Shown: piece after piece, positions 26,994 to 27,037 of the stretch
Position numbering within the stretch: the first letter of the stretch is position 1
Layout: every line of letters starts with the position of its first letter
Origin: Acidimicrobiales bacterium
Lineage (GTDB): Bacteria; Actinomycetota; Acidimicrobiia; Acidimicrobiales; Bog-793
Direction: 5' to 3'
Assembly (NCBI GenBank): GCA_035294085.1
Contig: DATGLP010000027.1
Location: 62,001-126,000 of the forward strand
DNA length: 64,000 nt
Translations under genes and position numbers: made by a program
Notes under the pieces: generated by a model
The model's input: only the letters and a program-made list of their open reading frames with translations
What the model was told of the DNA's origin: nothing
Databases searched by the model: none

Positions 26994-27037
26994 TTGAACG
27001 GCGTGTTAGCGCCGCGTGAACGGCGCGTGAAGCGAGC
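26994..27037 (-). promoter_or_regulatory. Four tandem 11-bp direct repeats upstream of amtB (PHO-box/GlnR-like)
   Basis: On the plus strand the units are TTGAACGGCGT, GTTAGCGCCGC, GTGAACGGCGC and GTGAAGCGAGC; read on the minus (transcribed) strand the core is GTTCAC/CTTCAC/GCTAAC/GTTCAA every 11 bp. Streptomyces PhoP boxes are 11-bp repeats with a GTTCACC core, and GlnR sites also use 5-mers spaced by 6. The array ends about 16 nt upstream of the predicted -35 hexamer, a position suited to an activator. Confidence 0.5.

Follow-up and report, generated by a model that had tools for sequence, protein, structure and literature searches.

The direct repeats upstream of amtB-glnK in this Acidimicrobiales genome are very probably the operator through which an activator acts on the amtB-glnK promoter, as part of a GlnR-type nitrogen regulon. 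This reading of the sequence is based on six half-sites located on one face of the helix, a GAAAC half-site 10 bp before the -10 element, a matching layout at glnII, conservation throughout the order, and an orphan regulator of the GlnR family whose gene is coupled to glnA.

The array was read directly in the window, which denotes the whole 64,000-nucleotide stretch of DNA analysed. It consists of six head-to-tail 11-bp units on the minus strand, positions 26967-27032, which follow one another in one continuous register: CTTCACGCGCC (27032-27022, half-site CTTCAC), GTTCACGCGGC (27021-27011, GTTCAC), GCTAACACGCC (27010-27000, GCTAAC), GTTCAAGGCGG (26999-26989, GTTCAA), TGGCACGGGAG (26988-26978, GGCAC), and CGAAACGCGCC (26977-26967, GAAAC). 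The initial annotation had described four units with an exact 11-bp spacing. All four are present on the minus strand with that spacing; however, the array is longer, and two further in-register units had been overlooked. On the 3' side, the array is followed by GTGCG (5 bp) and then by the -10 element TAGGTT (26961-26956, minus strand), which lies 10 bp after the last GAAAC at a spacing similar to that of the relatives. No -35 hexamer was found at the amtB promoter, and the last half-site sits in its place, in agreement with the earlier description of a TAGGTT promoter with a poor -35. The array starts 7 bp past the stop codon of gpmA (27041-27039), ends 56 bp 5' of the GTG start codon of amtB (26911-26909), and fills the short gap between gpmA and amtB-glnK. 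All three surrounding genes are encoded on the minus strand: amtB for an ammonium transporter (25466-26911; TIGR00836, 320 bits, E = 2e-95, slightly below the curated cut-off), glnK for a PII protein, overlapping the amtB stop (25131-25469; PF00543, 106.6 bits; NCBIfam PII models, 1e-41), and the upstream neighbour gpmA for phosphoglycerate mutase (27039-27782; TIGR01258, 340 bits). The six-unit score of the array was 38.0, and none of 600 shuffled promoters scored above 29.4; the scoring scheme was picked post hoc when the array was already known.

The upstream regions of amtB were then compared in relatives drawn from a set of 60 genomes within the same family and order. The nearest relatives share 73-78% AmtB identity, and the named AmtB homologues at 73-77% identity belong to Acidimicrobiaceae and to unplaced Actinomycetes MAGs, which places the organism within or close to the Acidimicrobiales. 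The array score exceeded those of all 600 shuffles in 28 of the 30 homologous amtB promoters (the own one and those of 29 relatives), and the array was kept in register. The 11-bp spacing is exact in the relatives, most of the arrays end in GAAAC, GCAAC, or GAAAT, and the distance from the last unit to the -10 element is usually 10 bp. The near relatives have six units and the distant relatives four. The four-unit form (GTTCAC, GTAAC, GTGAC, GAAAC) is close to the published a-b-a-b order of GlnR sites, gTnAc-n6-GaAAc-n6-GtnAC-n6-GAAAc (PMC10704036).

A whole-genome pattern search revealed, besides the amtB array, one strong copy approximately 130 bp before the glutamine synthetase II gene (contig C22, position 54691), which is a four-unit version of the amtB array. 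The glnII promoters follow the pattern GTTCAC-n5-GTTCAC-n5-GgACAC-n5-nGAAAC, with the -10 element about 10 bp further on; their arrays vary least at the A of every half-site and at the adjoining T, G, and C. The own glnII array scored above the 99th percentile of the shuffles, and so did those of 27 out of 29 relatives. Many glnII promoters also carry an extended -10, with TG one base before the hexamer (T in 20/29, G in 22/29), which would suit promoters lacking a -35 element.

The sequence-only model R1 was built from the glnII operators of 21 relatives, with the own genome excluded. In the own genome, R1 recovered glnII (E = 5e-10) and, ranked second, the array of the window (E = 0.04), whose score was modest (15.8 bits) and in which a second, weaker piece was also matched; within the 64-kb window, the amtB array was detected at E = 0.001. 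No locus beyond these two was found by R1 in the whole own genome at E values up to 10. In the relatives, R1 matches fall at glnII, at amt genes, and at a second glutamine synthetase gene, with weaker ones near genes for an amino-acid permease, an amino-acid-type binding protein, and ABC transporters. In one relative (G036), a GlnR-type array (C1:176466, L307) precedes a small gene for an OmpR-type DNA-binding domain, approximately 700 bp from an amtB homologue, and two further operator matches (C1:631708, L292, E = 9e-6; 3594090, L302, E = 9e-5) precede genes for an NMT1-like binding protein and for a circularly permuted ATP-grasp protein, respectively. Further copies had been expected near pst, glnA, and nitrogen genes; the second copy is indeed located at a nitrogen gene, but none was found by R1 at the phosphate genes of the own genome.

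The arrays have the spacing of GlnR sites, with direct 5-nt half-sites and 6-nt spacers. The six units of the window have the exact 11-bp spacing, the A at position 4 of the half-site is present in all six (in the four glnII units of the relatives in 29/29, 29/29, 26/29, and 28/29), and the two R1 loci, amtB-glnK and glnII, are nitrogen-assimilation genes. The last pair, GGCAC-n6-GAAAC, loosely fits an a-b box of the GlnR type. Units 1-4 (TTCAC, TTCAC, CTAAC, TTCAA) are without a clean a-b-a-b alternation here, and the distant relatives do show alternation (TTCAC/GTAAC/GTGAC/GAAAC). By analogy with known GlnR systems, GlnR dimers would bind the array head to tail under nitrogen limitation, the promoter-proximal dimer on the last pair would make the contact with RNA polymerase that a -35 element otherwise provides, and amtB-glnK and glnII would thereby be switched on.

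The own genome encodes six OmpR-type regulators, including RegX3-like (C21), MtrA-like (C23), and KdpE-like proteins, and no GlnR was found among them in this 95.7%-complete assembly. With the Pfam receiver model GlnR_1st, no convincing GlnR was obtained in the order (at most 38 bits, mostly partial matches, whereas the best matches among actinobacteria reach 92-155 bits). The absence of GlnR from the order, as considered from this model, was overturned when the regulators of small array-bearing genomes were compared, among which a group of orphan regulators has a nearly invariant DNA-binding domain. This orphan protein is present in 54 of the 60 relatives, with the next paralogue scoring more than 100 bits lower, and in all six relatives checked its gene lies directly downstream of the glutamine synthetase gene glnA. 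In the PDB, it is closest to 8hih, 8hig, and 8hml (E = 2e-37 to 7e-32; next family, 5e-21), which we take to be GlnR structures, their PDB names giving just "OmpR-family regulator". In the tree, it is the sister of actinomycete GlnR with a support of 100/100. The DNA-binding domain is 65% identical to that of actinomycete GlnR and the receiver approximately 23%, and in 29 of 30 cases the receiver has S or some other residue in place of Asp50. Since Asp50 is lacking and the GlnR_1st scores are low, we label the protein GlnR-like, on the basis of its DNA-binding domain and the tree, rather than standard GlnR. This divergent GlnR is likely the reader of the array. Of six relatives scanned for an autoregulatory array before glnA-glnR, four showed none; in the other two, G054 and G045, the stretch between glnA and a second, divergent glutamine synthetase gene holds an array that is directed at the latter gene. 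Of the two regulators proposed in the initial annotation, a GlnR homologue was thus found in the relatives but not in the own assembly, and a PhoP homologue is represented by the RegX3-like regulator, which is encoded with an adjacent kinase gene. The GlnR-type half of that annotation is borne out by the array conserved at amtB, the copy at glnII, and the GlnR-family regulator beside glnA in relatives. Conservation in related genomes and further copies near nitrogen or phosphate genes had been named as its touchstones, and the claim survives, because the array is conserved in the relatives, is repeated at glnII, and is accompanied by a GlnR-family regulator throughout the order.

The PHO box of PhoP in Streptomyces consists of 11-nt direct repeat units with the core GTTCACC. 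Three other 11-bp arrays of a C-rich type are located at phosphate genes of the own genome (G000), on contigs C26, C30, and C3. The C26 array (51750-51815; L166:2750-2815) comprises six units, GTTCGCG, GTTCGCC, GTACACC, CGTCACC, GCTCGCC, and CGTCACC, and is a candidate PHO box; immediately downstream of it lies an MFS gene, for which the top NCBIfam match, below the cut-off, is a phosphate:H+ symporter. The C30 array (27943-27998; L168:2944-2998) contains five TCACC-rich units between genes for a PHO4-family phosphate permease and a sulfatase, and is oriented away from the permease. The C3 array (L170:248-313) contains five weaker units, with TACGTT following after 5 bp; it lies where a PstB-like/pstS gene pair begins and is possibly a PHO-type promoter. 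The 11-nt spacing of the PHO box is found at amtB; however, its core is not. The seventh base of units 1 and 2 at amtB and glnII of the relatives is A or G in nearly all cases. A position-7 C occurs in 3/54 of amtB units 1-2 of 27 relatives versus 12/16 units in the own phosphate-gene arrays, a comparison that is descriptive and partly chosen by eye, as the C3 array was found by eye. Judged from their sequences, the C-rich phosphate arrays and the amtB/glnII arrays suggest two distinguishable codes rather than one.

Alternatives to a GlnR-type operator were weighed against these results. The units are short and degenerate, and GTTCACN5GTTCAC alone is not enriched in the 64-kb window, as would be compatible with chance repetition in GC-rich sequence; nevertheless, the in-register conservation in 28/30 amtB promoters and the recovery by the independently trained R1 leave this explanation a negligible probability. 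It is also highly improbable that the array is a PHO box, at which a RegX3/PhoP-like response regulator would read the GTTCAC units and tie amtB to the phosphate supply. Such a regulator is encoded, units 1 (CTTCAC) and 2 (GTTCAC) agree with the seven-base core at five and six positions, respectively, and PhoP of S. coelicolor binds at a3-b3 within the GlnR array of amtB (PMC6988585, PMC5826061). Against this, all six units at amtB lack the seventh C of the GTTCACC core, the array ends in GAAAC, which is unlike that core, and the second copy in the genome is located at the nitrogen gene glnII. The PHO-box half of the initial annotation is therefore not favoured, given the lack of the position-7 C and the separate C-rich arrays at phosphate genes. 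A nitrogen-phosphate link at amtB is hypothetical but possible, since a RegX3-like regulator is present and PhoP and MtrA bind part of the amtB GlnR array in Streptomyces. In a form with dual use, GlnR would be the main reader and MtrA- or RegX3-type regulators would compete for units 1-2, as in Streptomyces. We consider this rather unlikely: both types of regulator are encoded, that array is partly bound by MtrA and by PhoP in S. coelicolor (PMC6988585), and the extra 5' units of the six-unit form are placed where a competitor could bind; however, a third GlnR box, as in Streptomyces, explains the extra units equally well.

The regulator missing from the own assembly could also mean that GlnR is truly absent in this species and that a different OmpR-type regulator took over the array. 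In its favour are the high completeness of the assembly, with six candidates for the role, and five other relatives without the GlnR-like protein, two of which (G016 and G049) are rated 95% complete. However, the own glnA is cut by the end of contig C1 (24364 bp), with the domain match running to 24359 and the last base being 24364, and glnR is the next gene in 6/6 relatives. The genes upstream of the own glnA are in the same order as in the relatives. We therefore did not adopt the conclusion of a species without GlnR, as glnA is truncated exactly where glnR should come next, and regard such a loss as very improbable; from the synteny and the contig end, the own glnR would sit in the assembly gap after the truncated glnA.

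With the GlnR-type operator as the preferred reading, GlnR-type nitrogen control is extended, in both operator and regulator, to the Acidimicrobiales. A full-text literature search returned no relevant paper on such control in this order, and the operator seems undescribed in the literature searched. The candidate targets comprise amtB-glnK, glnII, the second glutamine synthetase, and amino-acid transport. Tentatively, and with somewhat less confidence than doubt, the Acidimicrobiales GlnR may form a distinct branch that has lost the receiver aspartate and receives the nitrogen state otherwise, e.g. through an interaction with glutamine synthetase, with the operator architecture and the DNA-binding domain conserved. 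On the same reading, the nitrogen and the phosphate regulators of one cell would each have an 11-bp repeat code distinguishable from the other's. The divergent regulator may merit the rank of a variant and, as a natural receiver variant without the aspartate, is of use in asking how nitrogen is sensed by GlnR, which is an open question. Surveys relying on the Pfam receiver model, which fails to detect this branch, would score GlnR as absent in error.

The closest known counterpart is amtB of S. coelicolor, where three GlnR boxes, a3-b3, a1-b1, and a2-b2, provide six half-sites (PMC5826061). The two promoters share the gene, six half-sites of the same kind in three pairs, and boxes located upstream with a predicted -10 after them. 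They differ in that half-sites 1 and 2 are both TTCAC here, not GTnAC/GAAAC, and in that all six lie in one register, the distant relatives having four units in a-b-a-b order. When named Streptomyces and Mycobacterium amtB promoters were scanned, the scores were mostly near the shuffled range, and the comparison with actinomycete promoters therefore rests on the literature. Like the Streptomyces PHO box, the array has 11-bp head-to-tail repeats and two units with a GTTCAC-like core; unlike it, the seventh C is missing, the units are non-uniform, GAAAC is terminal, and the location is at a nitrogen gene. MtrA sites in Streptomyces consist of two 6-nt repeats 5 nt apart and overlap GlnR boxes (PMC6988585), and any adjacent pair of amtB units would fit this 6-5-6 spacing. 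The relatives' regulator resembles actinomycete GlnR (8hih, 8hig, 8hml) in being an orphan OmpR-type protein, in the shared FGGxRTVDVHxRRLRAKLG, and in its sister position in the tree. It differs in the low identity of its receiver, the replaced Asp50, the failure of GlnR_1st to detect it, and the position of its gene, which directly follows glnA in the six relatives checked.
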